A stretch of 64,000 nucleotides of DNA from Mangrovimonas sp. ST2L15 (lineage in GTDB: Bacteria > Bacteroidota > Bacteroidia > Flavobacteriales > Flavobacteriaceae). Within the stretch, counting starts at the first letter, position 1, and every line of letters begins with the position of its first letter. The position numbers were made by a program, and so were the translations under genes. Location of the stretch: NCBI RefSeq assembly GCF_001280515.1, contig NZ_LBIQ01000030.1:558001-622000 (forward strand), read 5' to 3'. Positions 49,311 through 57,693 of this stretch are shown piece by piece. Under the pieces are notes generated by a model that was not told the origin of the DNA, did not search any database, and saw only the letters and a program-made list of their open reading frames with translations.

Positions 49311-50402
49311 TTATTGTAATAAACTATAGACAAATTCTGGATAGCCACGTTCTCCTGATTCGTTAGACATAGCTAAAAATTTAAGCTTGTAAAGGTTGCC
49401 ATCGGTATCTTTGACAATGTAAAAAACATTATCCTTAAGAGAAGGTTGAGTTCCAGGGCCACCGCCATTCCTCCAACTACTTCCTAAAGTTCTTTGGTCG
49501 TTATACACAAAATTATTTTCCACCACATTAGATAAAGCAAACGTGTTGTAAGTCATGTCAGTTTCCTCTTCGGTATCAATCATATATACACCAACATTAG
49601 CTTTTGAATTATTCACCACAAAATCTGAGTACCCATAGGCCCCATAATTTTCAATTAAATTGGTAAAGACGGTAAAGTTTAGATCCCAGTTTGTTGAGGT
49701 TGGTTCAATGTTAACTTCACTGTTTGTATTGAAACTAAAGAAAGTGAAGTTATAATCAGTATTTTTTGTAATAGTTACTTCTTGATGAGTGGTAGCATCC
49801 AATTCAGCATATTGCAAGATATAATTGTTTCCATCTTTTAACACACGGATTTTCATCCATCCCCGGCTTTCTCCCGTCACAGAAATGCTTCCAGTTTCAG
49901 GTGTGTCGGTTCCAACTTCATATCCTAAATTCAATAGGTATACTTTGTTATCAGAATCATTTTCAGAAATCTCTGCTATTGCAGTCCCAGAGATATCTCC
50001 GTTTGGCGCATCTACAAAGGCAGCACTCTCGCTTTGAAAGGTTCCAACCGCAGCAAAAGGTTGCAGTTCCTGTACCTCCTGGTCACTTGAGGTAACTACA
50101 TCAATATCAGTGGTAGTAAGGGCGGCAGCGGCCATATAGATAGAACCGTTGATAGCTACTCTAAAGCTATCACCAGAGTAAAATCCCAAATCCCAAGAAT
50201 CACGTTGGATGCTTGTAGTTGTATTAGTACTTAAATCTACATATACTTGGTTTTGTTGATTCGGTCCGCCTATTTCTGGAGTGACATTGGCACCCTCAAT
50301 AATAATATTAATGGGTCCAGTGGGCGTGTCGTCTTCACTGCTACAACTTGTAAAACCCAAGACGGTAGCTATACATAAAACAGAAAAAAATTTGTTGATC
50401 AT
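49311..50402 (-). CDS. HmuY family heme-binding lipoprotein
   Basis: A 363-residue lipoprotein (lipobox FTSC, Cys20). Two related beta units are visible (SWDLGFYSGDSFRVAINGSIYM and NWDLNFTVFTNLIENYGAYGYSDFVV), a pattern typical of the HmuY family, which captures heme and hands it to a TonB receptor. The upstream TonB receptor gene is 13 nt away. No classical paired heme-binding histidines are seen, so heme as the ligand is by family only. Confidence 0.85.
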   Translation of the reverse strand: MINKFFSVLCIATVLGFTSCSSEDDTPTGPINIIIEGANVTPEIGGPNQQNQVYVDLSTNTTTSIQRDSWDLGFYSGDSFRVAINGSIYMAAAALTTTDIDVVTSSDQEVQELQPFAAVGTFQSESAAFVDAPNGDISGTAIAEISENDSDNKVYLLNLGYEVGTDTPETGSISVTGESRGWMKIRVLKDGNNYILQYAELDATTHQEVTITKNTDYNFTFFSFNTNSEVNIEPTSTNWDLNFTVFTNLIENYGAYGYSDFVVNNSKANVGVYMIDTEEETDMTYNTFALSNVVENNFVYNDQRTLGSSWRNGGGPGTQPSLKDNVFYIVKDTDGNLYKLKFLAMSNESGERGYPEFVYSLLQ

Positions 50403-50415
50403 AATGGTTTTGATT

Positions 50416-52548
50416 TTAAATATTCAGATTGTATAAAAGTTTTAAATAATAGGAGCGTCCATAACCCAATAGCAGGGATTGACTTCCATTGGAATGTGTC
50501 CCTCCTGAAGCAGAATTGCTGATATCTACAGAGGTTATATCCAAAAGATTTCTGGCGCCCAAAGTAAGTGTGAGGGCATTGTTAAAAACCGATTTTTTCA
50601 AGGAGGCATCCAGCCACCCATAACCATTGGTAGTTTGCTTTGCATAAAGGGAATTTCCGTTGTCGTCTTCCCCAGAGGCTAAATAGGTTTGCTGTGGTCC
50701 TTGGTATTTGAAAAGCATGGTTACAAAAGTATTCCACTCCTTAAGGTGATAGGTACTACTGGTATTGATTTGGTAAGCATATAAAAAGTCATCATTGCCA
50801 TTGACTTCATTATGGTTAATGCGGGAAATACCTTGGATGGTAGCACCTAGCTTTAAAGTCCATCGCTCTGTATTTATAGCATTGTCTGAGGTGATTCCCC
50901 ATAGTTTGTAGGCATCAATATTAATGTATTGATATTGAAGAGGCAGAGTGTTTACAACCGCCAAGTCAATTTTGTCTTGAACATCTATAAAACTTAATTT
51001 CAGGGAATTCAACAAAGACATGTCACCTAGATAACTGTTCTTTTTAAAATTGATAAAAGCTGTAATTCCGTTTTCTGGTTTTAGGTTTTCATTGCCTCTT
51101 ACATCGTGGTTGGAATCGACAAAGTAGTAATAGAGTTCTTCAAAATTTGGGGTTCTGTAAGAAGTGCCCACATTTGCTCGTAATTGAAAACCGTGGGATA
51201 ATAAGTATCTGGCACTCAGACTACCGGTCAGTTGCGAGTGGTATTTGCTGTTGTACTCATAGCGTAATCCCGGTCTTAGCGATAGGGATTGGGTTACATT
51301 GTATTCCGACGAACCAAATAAGCCATAATTACCTTGAGTATGTGTTTTGTCTTGTTGTGTATAGTCCCCAGAAGCTTGGGTGTCAAACCCTTCAATATAT
51401 CTAGTTTCATAACCCAATTGAAAATTGAAATCCTCACTTTTTATCAAATTATTGACAGCTCCTTTAGAGAAAATCACCTTGCTAGATTGGTAGGTTTCAT
51501 TGGTTTCATCCGTTTTTTCTTTGGTAAGAATGTAGTAGTTAAATTCGTTAAGGTCTCTTTCTTGTTGTTGAAATGAAAAGGAAGCATCATAGTTGATTCC
51601 AGATTCCAATCGTCCATTGATATTGAGGTTGTTAACCCATCTATTGGTTCTGAAAATCTTATCCGAAGCTGATGGATTGCTGGTTTGAGTTTCAACATCT
51701 ATGTTAGATCTTACAGCTCGGTCATAGTAGTTCAGGATTTCATTGAAATACTCAAACTTGTAATTCAAGTTGAATTTTTCTGTTCGGTAATTAATCATAG
51801 CGTTACCAGTCCATTGTGTTTTGGGCAACCACTCATAACCGCGTAAACTATCGTTGAAGTAATGGTCCCTACCTTGGCTATTATTTAAATAACCCGCAAA
51901 TTGATTGCGGTTAAAACCTAGTTTTCCAAACCATTTGTCTGAAAAATTATGAGCTAAGTTTAAGCCTTGAATATGCCTCCCCTTGTCAAACCAAGCGTAT
52001 TCATCGCCTACAGTTTCTTCTTGCAAAAGAGCTTCTAGTTTCCAGTTACTGTCAATGGATTTTTTCGTGATAATATTAATTACTCCTGAAACGGCATTGG
52101 CTCCGTATTCCACACCCATAGCACCTTCAACAATTTCAATGCGTTCAATGTCATCCAAATTGATTTGTGTAAGATCCATATTGTTCCCAAGTCCGTTATC
52201 ACTAACAAGTGGGATATTATCTACCAAAATATTAAAGTATTGAGAGTCCAGACCGAAAAAGGAAATGGTTGATTTTCCAGATTGGGAATTGGGAATAATG
52301 GTAAGGTTTAAATTAAAGTTTAGCAGGTCTGCTAAATTATTGGCTGCTTGATTGTCTATTTGTTCACGTTTGATAACAATGACGTTATGCACCGATTTTT
52401 TTATGGATTGTGGATTGTATTGGCCCGTAACCACGACTTCAGTCAATTGTTCTGTAAGGGTTGAGTCTTGTTTGACCTCTTGGGAGAAGGTAAAGTAGCT
52501 TAAAAAAAGCAAAAAATAAATAACGATTTTATTTTTATTTAGACTCAT
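50416..52548 (-). CDS. TonB-dependent outer-membrane receptor, HmuR-like
   Basis: A 710-residue outer-membrane receptor. A signal peptide (ending FTFSQ) is followed by a TonB box region (QLTEVVVTGQYNPQSI), a plug domain (about 45-160, including IVEGAMGVEYGANAVSGVINIITKK) and a 22-strand barrel ending GYGRSYYLKLLYNLNI. It has no CarboxypepD-like N-terminal extension. Paired with HmuY, it most likely takes up heme or another iron compound. Promoter and Fur-like site lie at 52567-52603. Confidence 0.9.
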   Translation of the reverse strand: MSLNKNKIVIYFLLFLSYFTFSQEVKQDSTLTEQLTEVVVTGQYNPQSIKKSVHNVIVIKREQIDNQAANNLADLLNFNLNLTIIPNSQSGKSTISFFGLDSQYFNILVDNIPLVSDNGLGNNMDLTQINLDDIERIEIVEGAMGVEYGANAVSGVINIITKKSIDSNWKLEALLQEETVGDEYAWFDKGRHIQGLNLAHNFSDKWFGKLGFNRNQFAGYLNNSQGRDHYFNDSLRGYEWLPKTQWTGNAMINYRTEKFNLNYKFEYFNEILNYYDRAVRSNIDVETQTSNPSASDKIFRTNRWVNNLNINGRLESGINYDASFSFQQQERDLNEFNYYILTKEKTDETNETYQSSKVIFSKGAVNNLIKSEDFNFQLGYETRYIEGFDTQASGDYTQQDKTHTQGNYGLFGSSEYNVTQSLSLRPGLRYEYNSKYHSQLTGSLSARYLLSHGFQLRANVGTSYRTPNFEELYYYFVDSNHDVRGNENLKPENGITAFINFKKNSYLGDMSLLNSLKLSFIDVQDKIDLAVVNTLPLQYQYINIDAYKLWGITSDNAINTERWTLKLGATIQGISRINHNEVNGNDDFLYAYQINTSSTYHLKEWNTFVTMLFKYQGPQQTYLASGEDDNGNSLYAKQTTNGYGWLDASLKKSVFNNALTLTLGARNLLDITSVDISNSASGGTHSNGSQSLLLGYGRSYYLKLLYNLNI

Positions 52549-52566
52549 TCTTGATTAGATTTGCTG

Positions 52567-52574
52567 CAAATATA
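52567..52574 (-). promoter_or_regulatory. -7 element of the TonB receptor / hmuY operon
   Basis: Minus-strand TATATTTG is a perfect TAnnTTTG box, 18 nt upstream of the ATG at 52548. Confidence 0.6.
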
Positions 52575-52580
52575 TCATTG

Positions 52581-52603
52581 TTATTTGAAATTAGTCTAAA
52601 TAA
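52581..52603. promoter_or_regulatory. Candidate metal-repressor site (Fur-like)
   Basis: TTATTT and AAATAA form the outer arms of a 23-bp imperfect palindrome with TTAGTCTAAAT inside, 6 nt upstream of the minus-strand TATATTTG box. It sits in the 79-nt gap between the divergent arms of the iron locus, so a single site could control both. Confidence 0.45.
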
Positions 52604-52627
52604 GTATAAAAAATAAATCCAAAAATT

Positions 52628-53533
52628 ATGAAACATGTTTTTACTTCACTTTGTTTAATCGTTTTATTAAACTTTTACGGGTTTTCTCAGTCTAAAAAAC
52701 GACAAGATCAAGAAGCTATAAAAGAGATGTGTGGTTGTTATGAAGTAACTTTTAATTTTGCAGAAACTTTTGAATACTCTGGTGATTCCACTTATGTGCC
52801 TTCTAAAACAAAGCATGATCGCGGACTGGAATGGGTACAATTGGTTGAGGATGAATCCAACAAAATTTCGATGCAACATTTATTGATTGTAGGAAAACCA
52901 GATAGTCCATACATTGTGAAGCATTGGAGACAGGATTGGGAATTTGAAAACACCCACTTTTACATGTACGATCATGATAATAAATGGCAGTTTGTAACTC
53001 TTCCTAAAAATGATGTTAAAGGACAATGGACGCAAAAGGTGTTTCAAGTAGATGACAGTCCGCGTTACGAAGGTTCAGCTTCATGGGTTCATGTAGATGG
53101 CAAAAGCTATTGGGAAAATGAAGCTTCTGCACCACTTCCAAGACGGGAGTATACCACTAGAAGTGATTATAATGTAACTATCAGAAGAAACCGTCATGAA
53201 ATAACCAAAAATGGTTGGATTCATGACCAAGATAATGACAAAGTGATTCGTGAAGCAGGTAAGGATGATGTAATTTTGGCGCAGGAAAAAGGATACAATA
53301 CCTATGAGAAGGTCGATGATTCCAAATGTCAGGCAGCTCAAGATTATTGGTCCAAAAATCAAGGGAAATGGGCCGTGGTAAGAACAAAATGGAGTCAAGT
53401 ATTTGCCAGACACCAAGATTTAATTCTTGCTGAAAAAGTAGATAATAAAGGACTGTTTAAATATTTGTTGGATGACGCAAACTACCAAACAGCTGATCAA
53501 ATTAACCCAGTAATTGATTCCTTCGTAAAATAA
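52628..53533 (+). CDS. DUF6607-like exported protein
   Basis: A 301-residue exported protein (signal peptide ending GFSQ). The opening block IKEMCGCYEVTFNFAETFEYSGDSTY, with the CGCYEV cysteine pair, and many Trp/Tyr residues (HWRQDWEFENTHFYMYDHDNKWQF) match what I recall of DUF6607 proteins found beside TonB receptors. The function is unknown; a periplasmic or surface role in heme/iron uptake is inferred from position. It is the first gene of the plus-strand arm, 5 nt before the ankyrin gene. Confidence 0.75.
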   Translation: MKHVFTSLCLIVLLNFYGFSQSKKRQDQEAIKEMCGCYEVTFNFAETFEYSGDSTYVPSKTKHDRGLEWVQLVEDESNKISMQHLLIVGKPDSPYIVKHWRQDWEFENTHFYMYDHDNKWQFVTLPKNDVKGQWTQKVFQVDDSPRYEGSASWVHVDGKSYWENEASAPLPRREYTTRSDYNVTIRRNRHEITKNGWIHDQDNDKVIREAGKDDVILAQEKGYNTYEKVDDSKCQAAQDYWSKNQGKWAVVRTKWSQVFARHQDLILAEKVDNKGLFKYLLDDANYQTADQINPVIDSFVK

Positions 53534-53538
53534 GTTAT

Positions 53539-55011
53539 ATGATAAAGAATATTTTATTCGTTTTAGCACTAATTCAAGTAACGGTTGGTGTGTCTCAAGA
53601 AAATGTATTTCTGAACAGAGATTTTTGGAAAGCAAAACCTACCATGGCATTGGTAGATGAAAAGATTAAAGAGGGTAATGACCCAGCCCAAGCCAATGGG
53701 AACAATTTTGATGGTGTGGTAATGGCCATTTTAGCCGATGCTCCTTATGAAACCATCACTCACCTCATTTCTCAGAAGGGGAACGATGTTAATAAATTGA
53801 CCCATGACGGTAGAACTTATGTGTTTTGGGCTGCCTACAACGGAAATACCGAATTGATGCAGTTTCTTATTGATCGTGGTGCAAGAATGGATATAACAGA
53901 CGACCATGGTTTAACTCCTTTGAACTTTGCTGCAGGTCGCGGACAAATGAATACTAAGGTATATGATATTTGTTTAGCCAACGGTGCCAATCTTCAAAAG
54001 GATGTGAATAACCATGGCGCCAATGCCTTACTTCTTGCCGCTCCAAACGATCAAGATATTAAATTGATAACTTATTTTAAGTCTAAAGGACTTGATGTGA
54101 ACAGTGTTGATAGAGAAGGTAACGGGGTGTTTAACTATGTGGCTAGAACTGGTAATCTAGAATTATTGAATCAACTTCTTGAAAAGGGAATCAAAGGAAA
54201 TGATCAGGCCTTTTTATTTGCCGCTGCTGGTGCTAGAGGAAGTGCCAATGGAGTTGAGGTTTATAAATTTTTGGAGACTAAAGGTTTAACTCCAAATGTC
54301 ACCAATGACGAAGGTCAAACCCCTTTACATATTGTCGCAGCTCGCAGTAAGGATAAGGAAGTTATAAACTATTTGTTGAAAAAAGGACTAAGTGTCAATC
54401 AGGAAGATCACAATGGCAATACCCCTTTCATGAATGCGTGTCAAAGAAATGAATTGGAAGTCGTTCAATTATTAGGGGAAGATGTCAAGCAAATCAACCA
54501 TGCCAATAAAAAAGGTGAAACAGCTTTGTACTTGGCAATTGCAGGGAATAAATCCAATGTAGTAGGTTACTTGATAAATAAGGGAGCTGAAATAGGTGTA
54601 ACAACTGCAGAAGGGAACAATTTGGTTTTTGCTTTGTTAGAATCTTACAATGCTAGGAACAAAGAAGCCTTCGATGGTAAGTTAAAACTATTAAGTGAAA
54701 AAGGTTTAGATCTCCAACAAGAACAAGGTAACGGTGATACATGGTACCACCTAGCGGTTAAAAAGGGAAGCAAGGAGCTTTTAGATATGGCTGCTAAAAT
54801 GAATTTGGATATCAATGCCAAAAACAAGGAAGGAAATACGGCCTTACACTTGGCTGCTATGAAAGCTAAGGATGATCAAATCATGAAATGGTTGCTTAAC
54901 CATGGTGCCAATAAAAAAATCACCACCGAATTTGAAGAAACAGCACACGATTTGGCACAAGAGAACGAGTTGTTAGAAAAGAATCAGGTATCAATAGAAT
55001 TTTTAAAATAA
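53539..55011 (+). CDS. Exported ankyrin-repeat protein
   Basis: A 490-residue protein with a signal peptide (ending VGVSQ) and about ten ankyrin repeats from residue 75 on, such as HDGRTYVFWAAYNGNTELMQFLIDRGA, DDHGLTPLNFAAGRG, DEGQTPLHIVAARSKDKEVINYLLKKG and KEGNTALHLAAMKAKDDQIMKWLLNHGA. Ankyrin repeats give protein-protein contacts; being exported, it probably works in the periplasm. It lies 5 nt before the DUF2271 gene. Its partner is unknown; the adjacent redox proteins are candidates. Confidence 0.88.
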   Translation: MIKNILFVLALIQVTVGVSQENVFLNRDFWKAKPTMALVDEKIKEGNDPAQANGNNFDGVVMAILADAPYETITHLISQKGNDVNKLTHDGRTYVFWAAYNGNTELMQFLIDRGARMDITDDHGLTPLNFAAGRGQMNTKVYDICLANGANLQKDVNNHGANALLLAAPNDQDIKLITYFKSKGLDVNSVDREGNGVFNYVARTGNLELLNQLLEKGIKGNDQAFLFAAAGARGSANGVEVYKFLETKGLTPNVTNDEGQTPLHIVAARSKDKEVINYLLKKGLSVNQEDHNGNTPFMNACQRNELEVVQLLGEDVKQINHANKKGETALYLAIAGNKSNVVGYLINKGAEIGVTTAEGNNLVFALLESYNARNKEAFDGKLKLLSEKGLDLQQEQGNGDTWYHLAVKKGSKELLDMAAKMNLDINAKNKEGNTALHLAAMKAKDDQIMKWLLNHGANKKITTEFEETAHDLAQENELLEKNQVSIEFLK

Positions 55012-55016
55012 ATAAA

Positions 55017-55505
55017 ATGTTTAAAAAAGTAAGTTTTTTATCATTCTTGACCTTGTTAGTATTAGGGTTTTACTCCTTTACTAATAATGTAGATCCTATT
55101 AAGTATAAATGTATGGTTCAAATGACCAATTATACTGGTGAAGGCGCGTATATCGTTATTTCGTTAATCAATCCAAAAGGGGATTATGAAGAAACGCTAT
55201 ATGTTCAAGGGGATGACAGTGAGTGGTACAATACTTTGGAATCTTGGTGGAAATTTTATGGTAAAAAGCGTAATAACATCGATGCCATTACAGGAGCCAC
55301 TATTTCTGGAGGGGAACGAACCATTTCTGTTATTTCCATAGATGATTCAAAAATCAATGCAGGTTATAAAATTCGATTTGAGACCGCAGTTGAAGATCAA
55401 GAATATTATCAAACGGATTTGGAATTTCCGTTAACTACTGAGAGTATTAAAGACAAACATGAAGGAACAGGATTTATCCGATATGTTCGTATGATGCCTA
55501 ATTAA
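55017..55505 (+). CDS. DUF2271 protein with flavinylation-type motif
   Basis: A 162-residue protein with an N-terminal signal segment and a DUF2271 beta domain. Residues 89-95 read D-A-I-T-G-A-T, which fits the consensus (D-x-x-S/T-G-A-T) recognised by the flavin transferase ApbE, with Thr95 as the predicted FMN attachment site. No apbE is in the window. It sits 10 nt before a PepSY-flavodoxin-FNR reductase, so a role as extracytosolic electron carrier is likely. Confidence 0.8.
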   Translation: MFKKVSFLSFLTLLVLGFYSFTNNVDPIKYKCMVQMTNYTGEGAYIVISLINPKGDYEETLYVQGDDSEWYNTLESWWKFYGKKRNNIDAITGATISGGERTISVISIDDSKINAGYKIRFETAVEDQEYYQTDLEFPLTTESIKDKHEGTGFIRYVRMMPN

Positions 55506-55515
55506 AGAAACATTT

Positions 55516-57693
55516 ATGACCATTTCAATTTGGAGATACAGTCACTTGGCGTTGGCTGTATCTTCCTTTGTATTTATTCTTTTGGCCTCGATTACCGGAA
55601 TTATTTTGGCATTTCAGCCTATTTCGGAACAAATGCAGCCCTATCATGTTTCCGATTTGGGCCAAGTTTCTTTGGCGGAAACCGTAGCTGTTTTTAAAAA
55701 GAATTATTCAGAGATTATTGAAATAAATATTGATGCAAATGGTTTTGTTGCGGCTTCTGTTTTTACAGAAGATGGTGAAAATTTAGAAGGATATTTCAAT
55801 CCAGAAACAGCGCAGTATTTAGGGGAGAAAATAAAACCATCACCTTTTTTTCAATGGGTCACCAATTTCCATAGGTCCTTATTTTTAAAAAGCACAGGGA
55901 GGTTTCTAGTGGGGCTTTTCTCCTTCTTTTTGTGTTTAATTGCGCTCTCTGGATTAGTCTTGGTGATTAAACGACAAAGAGGACTCAAACAGTTTTTCTC
56001 CAAGGTTGTCAATGAAAACTTTAACCAGTATTGGCATGTTGTATTAGGCAGATGGTCATTGATTCCAATAATTATAATTAGTTTAACAGGAGTCTATTTA
56101 TCCTTAGAAAAGTTTGATGTTTTACCCCAAGAAGCAAATGGACACCATGTAAATTTCGAAACGCTTAAAGCAAGTCCTGTCAAACCTATTTCTGTATTTA
56201 ATTCCACTCAACTTTCTGAAGTTAAGTCCTTGGAATTTCCATTCTCTGATGATGTAGAAGATTATTTTATTCTGAAACTAAAAAATAGGGAGCTAGCCAT
56301 AAATCAGTTTACTGGCGAGATTTTAAGTGAGATTCCGCAGTCTAATTTCCAACTGTTGTCCAGATTAAGTTTGAATCTGCATACAGGTAAGGGAAGTATA
56401 TTATGGTCTTTAATTTTAGCTATAGCAGGAGTCAATATTATCTATTTTGTGTATTCCGGTTTTGCCATGACCTTAAAACGTCGGAAGTCGCGCTTGAAGA
56501 ATAAATTTAAAAAGAATGACTGTGAGTATATCATTTCGGTCGGTTCAGAAAACGGTTCTACTTTTAGTTATGCCCAAGTGCTCTATGAAGGATTGCTAAA
56601 GGCCAATAAAAAAGTGTTTATTTCAGAATTGAATGATTTTGGAGATTACCCAAATGCCAAACATCTTATTGTCATGACGGCGACTTATGGTCAGGGCGAA
56701 GCACCAACAAATGCCAATAAGTTTTTGGACATCGTAAAGGACATGAAGCCATCAGGAGTCAACTATTGTGTGGTAGGGTTTGGATCTTTGGCTTATCCAG
56801 ATTTTTGTCAATTTGCCTTTGATGCAGATGAAATAATGAATTCTAGATTTTCTCAGTTTTTGAAGCCATTCACCATTAATGATAAATCCATAGAATCTTT
56901 TCAGAAATGGGTTAATAGGTGGTCAAAAAAAGCAGAAATTCCGCTATCGATAGCATTGGAAGAGCTTCAAACAAAACCAAAACTAACCAAAAAGGCAACC
57001 ATTCTTTCCAAAACGGATGTCCATAATCAACCAGATGATACTTTTTTATTAACGCTTAAATCCAAAGGGTATCAGAGGTTTCAATCTGGTGATTTATTGG
57101 CTGTTTATCCCAAAAATGATTATAGGGAACGTTTGTATTCTATTGGGAAAGTGAAGGGCCACATGCAATTGAGCATTAAGTTTTATGAGAACGGTCTGGG
57201 ATCAAATTACCTTTATAACGGCGAAGCAGGAGATATTCTAAAAGGAAAAATTATAAGTAATACCCATTTTCATCTTCCAAAGAAGAAATCTCAAGTCATG
57301 ATGATTGCCAACGGTACTGGGGTTGGCCCATTTTTAGGGATGATTGATGAAAACAAAAAACATGACATTCAATTGTATTTAGGGTTAAGAACCCAAGATT
57401 CCTATGAGCTCTATAAATCACAGGTTGAGGGCTATTTACAAGATAGGAAACTTCGTGGTTTTCAATTGGCATTGTCTCGGGAGCATCATAAAGCGTATGT
57501 ACAAGACCTACTTTTGAATGATGCCGAAAAGGTTGCAAAATTACTGTTGAATGGAGGAACCATCATGCTTTGTGGCTCCTTGGCTATGCAGAACGGAGTC
57601 ATAAATGCTTTGGAAACTATATGTTCTGACTATGCTCAAAAACCATTAAGTTATTTTCAAAAGGAACAGCAATTAAGGATGGACTGTTACTAG
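55516..57693 (+). CDS. PepSY membrane protein fused to flavodoxin-FNR reductase
   Basis: A 725-residue fusion. Residues 1-330 form a PepSY-associated membrane module with about four helices (near 12-30, 130-155, 185-205, 295-315) and histidines usable as heme ligands (FHRSLF, YWHVVLG, LHTGKG). Residues about 335-470 are a flavodoxin domain (ISVGSENGSTFSYAQ, TATYGQGEAPTNA). Residues about 490-725 are a ferredoxin-NADP+ reductase/sulfite-reductase-type FAD/NAD(P) domain (RERLYSIGKV, ANGTGVGPFLGMI, and a C-terminal MDCY whose aromatic end usually stacks on FAD). Electrons should pass from cytoplasmic NAD(P)H through FAD and FMN to the membrane part. A ferric or heme reductase role is likely. Confidence 0.88.
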   Translation: MTISIWRYSHLALAVSSFVFILLASITGIILAFQPISEQMQPYHVSDLGQVSLAETVAVFKKNYSEIIEINIDANGFVAASVFTEDGENLEGYFNPETAQYLGEKIKPSPFFQWVTNFHRSLFLKSTGRFLVGLFSFFLCLIALSGLVLVIKRQRGLKQFFSKVVNENFNQYWHVVLGRWSLIPIIIISLTGVYLSLEKFDVLPQEANGHHVNFETLKASPVKPISVFNSTQLSEVKSLEFPFSDDVEDYFILKLKNRELAINQFTGEILSEIPQSNFQLLSRLSLNLHTGKGSILWSLILAIAGVNIIYFVYSGFAMTLKRRKSRLKNKFKKNDCEYIISVGSENGSTFSYAQVLYEGLLKANKKVFISELNDFGDYPNAKHLIVMTATYGQGEAPTNANKFLDIVKDMKPSGVNYCVVGFGSLAYPDFCQFAFDADEIMNSRFSQFLKPFTINDKSIESFQKWVNRWSKKAEIPLSIALEELQTKPKLTKKATILSKTDVHNQPDDTFLLTLKSKGYQRFQSGDLLAVYPKNDYRERLYSIGKVKGHMQLSIKFYENGLGSNYLYNGEAGDILKGKIISNTHFHLPKKKSQVMMIANGTGVGPFLGMIDENKKHDIQLYLGLRTQDSYELYKSQVEGYLQDRKLRGFQLALSREHHKAYVQDLLLNDAEKVAKLLLNGGTIMLCGSLAMQNGVINALETICSDYAQKPLSYFQKEQQLRMDCY

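Follow-up and report, generated by a model that had tools for sequence, protein, structure and literature searches.

Why genes for the uptake of haem should stand beside a transmembrane flavoreductase is the question raised by a locus of Mangrovimonas sp. ST2L15 that spans positions 49311 to 57693 of the window, by which we mean the whole stretch of 64,000 nucleotides (nt) that was analyzed (contig NZ_LBIQ01000030.1, positions 558,001 to 622,000). Our analysis indicated that the locus is probably, with a likelihood of about 0.72, an iron-starvation unit of two adjoining modules, one for haem capture (module A) and one providing a transmembrane electron path to periplasmic ferric iron (module B), under a Fur-type switch. 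In the list of open reading frames (ORFs), the six genes lie where an earlier interpretation made from the letters alone (the sequence-only reading) had placed them, with the same gaps of 5, 5, and 10 nt on the plus strand, and the Pfam labels of all six bore out its view that haem/iron uptake genes adjoin a transmembrane flavoreductase. The features are as follows.

49311 to 50402, minus strand: HmuY-like lipoprotein, predicted to bind haem, in the RhuA/HfpY position (Pfam HmuY PF14064, E = 3.4e-30; Cys20)
50416 to 52548, minus strand: TonB-dependent receptor, in the RhuR/HfpR position (Pfam TonB barrel, 3.6e-23; Plug, 6.8e-21)
52567 to 52574, minus strand: candidate promoter element of the Bacteroidota −7 type for the receptor operon, TATATTTG (recurrence of CAAATATA in intergenic regions)
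52580 to 52604, no strand: palindromic operator and possible Fur box, between the divergent operons (motif scan, 25.2 bits)
52628 to 53533, plus strand: DUF6607 protein, RhuH-family haemophore by sequence (Pfam PF20311, 8.5e-96; match to 8XJC)
53539 to 55011, plus strand: exported ankyrin-repeat protein (Pfam Ank_2, 1.3e-50; signal-like N-terminus)
55017 to 55505, plus strand: DUF2271 protein, predicted periplasmic electron carrier (Pfam PF10029, 3.2e-41; TGAT at residues 92-95)
55516 to 57693, plus strand: PepSY_TM-flavodoxin-FNR transmembrane reductase (Pfam PepSY_TM, 1.4e-36; Flavodoxin_1, 3.1e-15; NAD_binding_1, 9.5e-8)

Module A comprises the HmuY-like lipoprotein, the TonB receptor, and the DUF6607 protein, while module B comprises the ankyrin protein, the DUF2271 protein, and the PepSY-flavodoxin-FNR reductase; the two modules also occur apart. 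DUF6607 and DUF2271 each gave a single match in the window genome.

A profile of 62 DUF6607 proteins, searched against the PDB, matched the haemophore structure 8XJC with an E value of 2.5e-109, the next match being at 0.09. The AlphaFold2 model of the window protein (predicted local distance difference test score of 86.9) was superimposed by Foldseek on the two chains of 8XJC with template modelling (TM) scores of 0.83/0.90 and 0.81/0.88 and identities of 47 and 45%. This entry is the crystal structure of RhuH from Riemerella anatipestifer, which binds haem with a dissociation constant of 3.44e-11 M and is required for normal growth on haemin and haemoglobin; its haem ligand, His96, was modelled and then tested by mutation, and R143, Y144, R170, R183, and Q198 make five propionate contacts (PMC11967795; published work is cited here and below from parts of the papers named). 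When RhuH was mapped by hand onto the window protein on the profile alignment, H99 corresponded to the ligand and R146, Y147, R173, R186, and Q201 to the five contacts, and all six residues were invariant in 62/62 proteins. Because of the profile match, the fold superposition, and the invariant haem-contact residues, we assign the DUF6607 protein to the RhuH haemophore family and predict that it binds haem. The sequence-only reading had cast it as a structural partner, a role that these results refute, and DUF6607, a Pfam family of unknown function, is now tied to a published haemophore fold. The name DUF6607 was found neither in the literature searched nor in the main text of the RhuH paper. 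A bilin-lyase fold of the CpcT/CpeT type, considered for its motif resemblance, was dropped once the PDB profile search gave RhuH, and nitrobindin barrels ranked after 8XJC in the fold search with a query TM score of only about 0.33.

The receptor contains a segment, YRTP..His..NENLKPE, which we take to resemble the FRAP/NPNL motif of haem receptors; a regular expression of this kind fitted 14 of 57 receptors of the window's class and none of 37 receptors of a second class. The HmuY-like protein carries Cys20 at a lipobox-like place in 57/57 aligned sequences, among which no His or Met is kept at 90% and several Tyr residues are; the haem ligands (His-His or Met-Met) vary within the HmuY family (PMC11967795, PMC9331221). 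In R. anatipestifer, rhuH is divergent from rhuR-rhuA and shares with them a 122-bp promoter holding a Fur box (PMC11967795), and module A has the same layout of haemophore against receptor and lipoprotein, with a short common promoter and a candidate regulatory box, in addition to the matching haemophore fold and haem contacts. However, the iron-induced genes annotated there as ankyrin, predicted periplasmic, and nitric oxide synthase (NOS) proteins have distant locus tags (B739_0175-0177), whereas in the window module B comes directly after the haemophore gene. The HfpR-HfpY system of Flavobacterium psychrophilum likewise pairs a TonB receptor with an HmuY-like haem-binding protein and is induced by iron scarcity, but there a DoxX gene stands between the two (PMC9331221). 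It belongs to an iron-responsive region of 19 kb in which putative genes for transmembrane electron transfer were also described, so the proximity of haem uptake and electron-transfer genes has already been noted in print; the words ankyrin and PepSY were not found in the main text of that paper.

Judged by its domains and motif, module B is a variant of published flavinylated electron-transfer clusters with PepSY and DUF2271 proteins. One DUF2271 member was shown to be flavinylated by ApbE at the motif [S/T]GA[S/T], and the family accompanies PepSY proteins and has a link to iron (PMC8238504). The sequence TGAT at residues 92-95 of the window protein fits this motif and is the predicted attachment site of flavin mononucleotide (FMN). 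The PepSY_TM protein, the DUF2271 motif, and the link to iron are thus common to both; the window cluster differs from those described in the passages of PMC8238504 in that its PepSY protein is fused to flavodoxin-FNR, an exported ankyrin protein is present, and ApbE is absent. DUF4198 is missing as well, with no match in the window genome and none near a DUF2271 match in 149 genomes of the family (compared by eye); in the published clusters, ApbE and DUF4198 are frequent and not obligatory (PMC8238504). In 14 of 91 loci, an ApbE gene is no more than about 320 bp away from the PepSY gene, 11 times on the same strand; all 14 are DUF2271-centred phylum loci. Compared with the module-linked ApbE of locus L109, one of the two ApbE genes of the window genome is closely similar (361 bits) and the other scores 90 bits. 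The module-like one (L003, G000:C29, around 266913-267752) adjoins a thioredoxin-like gene and a gene for a DUF3570-like exported protein, as seen by eye.

In the PepSY protein, H10, H119, H174, and H289 are invariant in 91/91 aligned sequences, which would suit two His-ligated haem sites of the kind reported in FoxB and HiuB (PMC12424826). Residues ~330-725 match the folds of P450 reductase and NOS reductase with Z scores of up to 29.4, a likeness that could explain why B739_0177 is annotated as a nitric oxide synthase; FoxB was not among the matches listed in these fold searches, which barely probed the membrane half of the model. The siderophore reductases FoxB, HiuB, and XusC are likewise PepSY membrane proteins that accompany TonB receptors and are proposed to reduce ferric siderophores, but the passages of PMC12424826 and PMC13142918 mention neither a fused flavodoxin-FNR nor an ankyrin partner. 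Comparable proposals of iron reduction by PepSY proteins concern Caulobacter (PMC12004947, PMC12424826) and Bacteroides XusABC (PMC13142918); insertions in the Caulobacter PepSY/DUF2271/DUF4198 locus, a Fur target, reduce fitness in ethylenediaminetetraacetate (PMC12004947), and in Alteromonas, DUF2271 genes near TonB receptors are iron responsive (PMC7190382). The sequence-only reading, which knew of no described mechanism for the set, was too strong for most of its parts, given the published DUF2271 flavinylation and the HfpR/HfpY region; for the role of the ankyrin protein, no description was found.

We propose that the exported RhuH-type haemophore would take haem and that the HmuY-like lipoprotein and the TonB receptor would carry it across the outer membrane. 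Electrons would pass in the cytosol from NAD(P)H to the flavin adenine dinucleotide and FMN of the FNR and flavodoxin domains, then to the two membrane haems of the PepSY protein and to the covalent FMN of periplasmic DUF2271, which would reduce periplasmic ferric iron, from haem or other chelates, to Fe(II) for FeoB; FeoB_C matches are present in the window genome. The ankyrin protein would most likely be a scaffold or dock that joins DUF2271 to the PepSY protein or to the substrate, and a Fur-type repressor at 52580-52604 would switch both operons. On the likeliest reading, module A captures haem and module B, in parallel or in series, reduces ferric iron for FeoB. The gene identities, the haemophore family, the haem contacts, the flavinylation motif, the invariant His residues, and the conserved operator are sequence-based here, and the work of others on relatives contributes haem binding and use by RhuH (PMC11967795), flavinylation of one DUF2271 protein (PMC8238504), and regulation by iron and Fur (PMC5429918, PMC7976709); we infer the electron route, its substrate, the operator's regulator, how the modules are coupled, and what the ankyrin protein does. 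Periplasmic processing of ferric iron and haem in Bacteroidota is little known, and the locus makes a coupling of haem capture and reduction testable.

To follow the association of the two modules, we used 80 named DUF6607 loci (the best 80 of 280 relatives, leaning towards close kin), a family sample of 149 Flavobacteriaceae genomes (148 genera), and a phylum sample of 296 genomes. The first nine named relatives (L005-L013), at 74-78% identity, come from Flavobacteriaceae such as Mangrovimonas, Tamlana, Winogradskyella, and Bizionia. The ankyrin, DUF2271, and PepSY genes lay downstream of DUF6607 in 71 of the 80 loci, by a script count in which L067 was missed by the distance cut and L040 is cut by a contig end. 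In the family sample, DUF6607 was present in 55 genomes and DUF2271 in 48, with both in 36, DUF6607 only in 19, and DUF2271 only in 12 (Fisher p = 7e-11, uncorrected for phylogeny). The two genes were joined (at most 8 kb apart on one strand) in 30 of these 36 genomes and unjoined in 6. Between the joined genes, 27 of the 30 gaps measured 1.55-1.8 kb, which fits an ankyrin gene (the gene itself was checked in the fetched loci only), and one measured 4.1 kb; G182 and G344 have no room for it, and the fetched loci (L106, L134) show none between.

This joined arrangement in 30 genomes, 27 of them with ankyrin-sized gaps, speaks against the view that the modules are functionally independent and share only an iron-responsive operator, module B serving ferric siderophores or chelates with no part in haem use. 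That view is nevertheless a serious contender, which we rate somewhat below even odds, since elsewhere in the phylum the modules separate. DUF6607 was found in 25 phylum genomes, and DUF2271 in 22 above the cut-off and in 35 at E 0.001. Among 23 fetched phylum DUF6607 loci (counted without the window and without a DUF6607 fragment in G270), a labelled TonB receptor lay within 6 kb in all 23 and an HmuY-like protein in 21, but the full module B and the ankyrin gene in none; one (L106) had DUF2271 alone. Conversely, ankyrin and PepSY genes accompanied DUF2271 in 18 of 22 fetched phylum loci (the exceptions being L106, L120, L122, and L125, of which L125 is located at the end of its contig), and 9 of these 18 had another receptor class in the fetched stretch (label TBDT3, some scores weak). 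Of 12 further loci, 11 from DUF2271-only genomes plus L134, 9 held ankyrin-DUF2271-PepSY (L138 is cut by a contig end). That module B is used in the absence of haem genes favours a ferric reductase of general purpose. In the joined form, module B might instead be a dedicated haem reductase, which would reduce haem iron or feed electrons to a periplasmic haem-degrading step: joining with the haemophore system across many genera favours such an enzyme, but module B also stands near the different receptor class, to which no ligand is assigned, and none of the six cluster proteins matches a haem-degrading Pfam family, so we consider it unlikely. The conserved co-occurrence expected by the sequence-only reading was seen in part of the family; elsewhere in the phylum the reductase module stands free or near another class of TonB receptor and shows no fixed tie to haem genes. 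A path from uptake through periplasmic reduction to import by FeoB is likely.

The region between the divergent operons holds a candidate regulatory site. A 25-bp palindrome, CTTATTT..AAATAAG, recurs in the intergenic regions between receptor and DUF6607 genes (n = 85; 68 aligned sites), and the site at 52580-52604 is the only match of at least 10 bits in the 64 kb, five block-shuffled copies giving none of at least 8 bits. The motif was also scanned in 33 DUF2271-centred loci that had no part in its training; there, matches of at least 12 bits within 300 bp upstream were found for 17/27 ankyrin genes, 14/17 labelled TonB receptors, and 14/287 other ORFs. The motif CAAATATA is present on either strand in 79/85 intergenic regions, and TATATTTG at 52567 to 52574 on the minus strand is presumably a promoter element that follows the Bacteroidota −7 consensus. 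Between the end of the palindrome and the start of DUF6607 lie 23 nt, and the Fur box of R. anatipestifer lies 25 bp upstream of rhuH (PMC11967795); since its place matches that in the rhuH system, the palindrome is possibly a Fur box.

In R. anatipestifer, iron limitation raised B739_1415-1417 by log2 values of 4.71, 3.77, and 4.55 and B739_0173-0177 by 3.31, 3.64, 2.41, 3.06, and 1.05 (PMC5429918). Fur represses B739_0173 and binds its promoter, and a printed Fur-box consensus is also said to precede this gene (PMC7976709). Induction by iron limitation, anticipated by the sequence-only reading, is thus seen for the annotated counterparts, those of module B having been matched by annotation and gene order only. 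The Elizabethkingia iron paper (PMC7221216) gave no hit for ankyrin, PepSY, HmuY, DUF2271, sulfite reductase, or flavodoxin, and a Bizionia paper (PMC9478572) has one PepSY passage, from which the other locus genes are absent.

Several observations weigh against the proposed two-module iron-starvation unit. DUF6607 was present in none of the 18 complete module-B phylum loci within the fetched stretch, and a genome of the same genus (L131, 6320-12515) carries module B without module A at apparently the same site; there, the operator was not found (best score, −2.1). The receptor beside DUF6607 was of the window's class in 46, of the second class in 28, and unlabelled in 6 of the 80 named loci; these 6 thus have no labelled receptor, and 6 of the 28 second-class loci have no module B. 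Both ApbE genes of the window genome lie outside the 64-kb window, and 17 of 93 aligned DUF2271 sequences deviate from [S/T]GA[S/T] (variants printed as SGET/TGET; examples in L021, L055, and L106). No motif was found within 300 bp of 10 of the 27 ankyrin genes, some of which stand behind a motif-bearing receptor (L135, L139). The printed R. anatipestifer Fur-box consensus is of the Escherichia coli type and differs from the window palindrome (PMC7976709), and B739_0175-0177 correspond to module B by annotation and gene order only.

The exported ankyrin protein is the least explained part of the locus. A crude test gave a signal-like N-terminus for 87 of 92 relatives, and the protein accompanies the DUF2271-PepSY module in most relatives examined; we therefore put it forward as a frequent partner of the flavinylated iron-reductase module. 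No paper naming both ankyrin and DUF2271 was found in the literature searched. A bolder proposal, which we advance only tentatively and judge rather improbable, is that the ankyrin protein is a regular, undescribed part of the Bacteroidota iron-reductase module, in the place of DUF4198 of many published PepSY/DUF2271 clusters, and that in some Flavobacteriaceae this module is wired to the haemophore system, making a single pathway of haem capture and periplasmic reduction in which the ankyrin protein binds haem or docks flavinylated DUF2271. That it is instead a periplasmic haem chaperone passing haem onward from the receptor has a precedent, by analogy only, in haem-binding or catalase-supporting ankyrin proteins: Campylobacter Cj1386 (called an ankyrin protein in the title of a reference cited there) binds haem via Tyr57 and serves catalase (PMC11442138), and catalase activity depends on ankyrin proteins in Pseudomonas and Campylobacter, AnkB being cited as periplasmic (PMC7567364). 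However, in 18 of the 22 fetched phylum loci the ankyrin protein goes with DUF2271-PepSY and not with a haem receptor, and the His residues kept in at least 89 of 91 sequences (H89, H264, H404) resemble, in our reading, ankyrin consensus positions, which makes a chaperone quite unlikely. NCBIfam matches to Legionella effectors were far below the cut-off and were taken as repeat similarity only. Locus L134 (9312-12910) has DUF6607-DUF2271-PepSY without an ankyrin gene, which is therefore not strictly obligatory in the joined form.

Further arrangements were observed at single loci. In L137 (2594-10630), HmuY and receptor genes are divergent from ankyrin-DUF2271-PepSY with no DUF6607 between. 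The flanks of L131 resemble, by eye, the window's own SulP/carbonic anhydrase and CvpA/PheS-like genes, a SulP-like gene taking the place of module A. In L108 (5636-9347), L117 (11917-15734), and L128 (4249-8042), a TonB receptor, which in L108 has a Pfam-checked carboxypeptidase-regulatory domain, and a lipoprotein of ~440 amino acids stand directly before the ankyrin operon. The lipoprotein might be a siderophore-binding one; we do not claim it as XusB (DUF4374), as it had no credible Pfam or PDB match. In L063 (6689-10882), DUF6607 and a receptor precede CvpA/PheS-like genes without module B; this locus, like L074, L076, and L081, combines a second-class receptor, DUF6607, a short HmuY, and a DoxX gene with no reductase module (in L063, PF14064 at 1e-10 and PF07681, respectively, for the last two).

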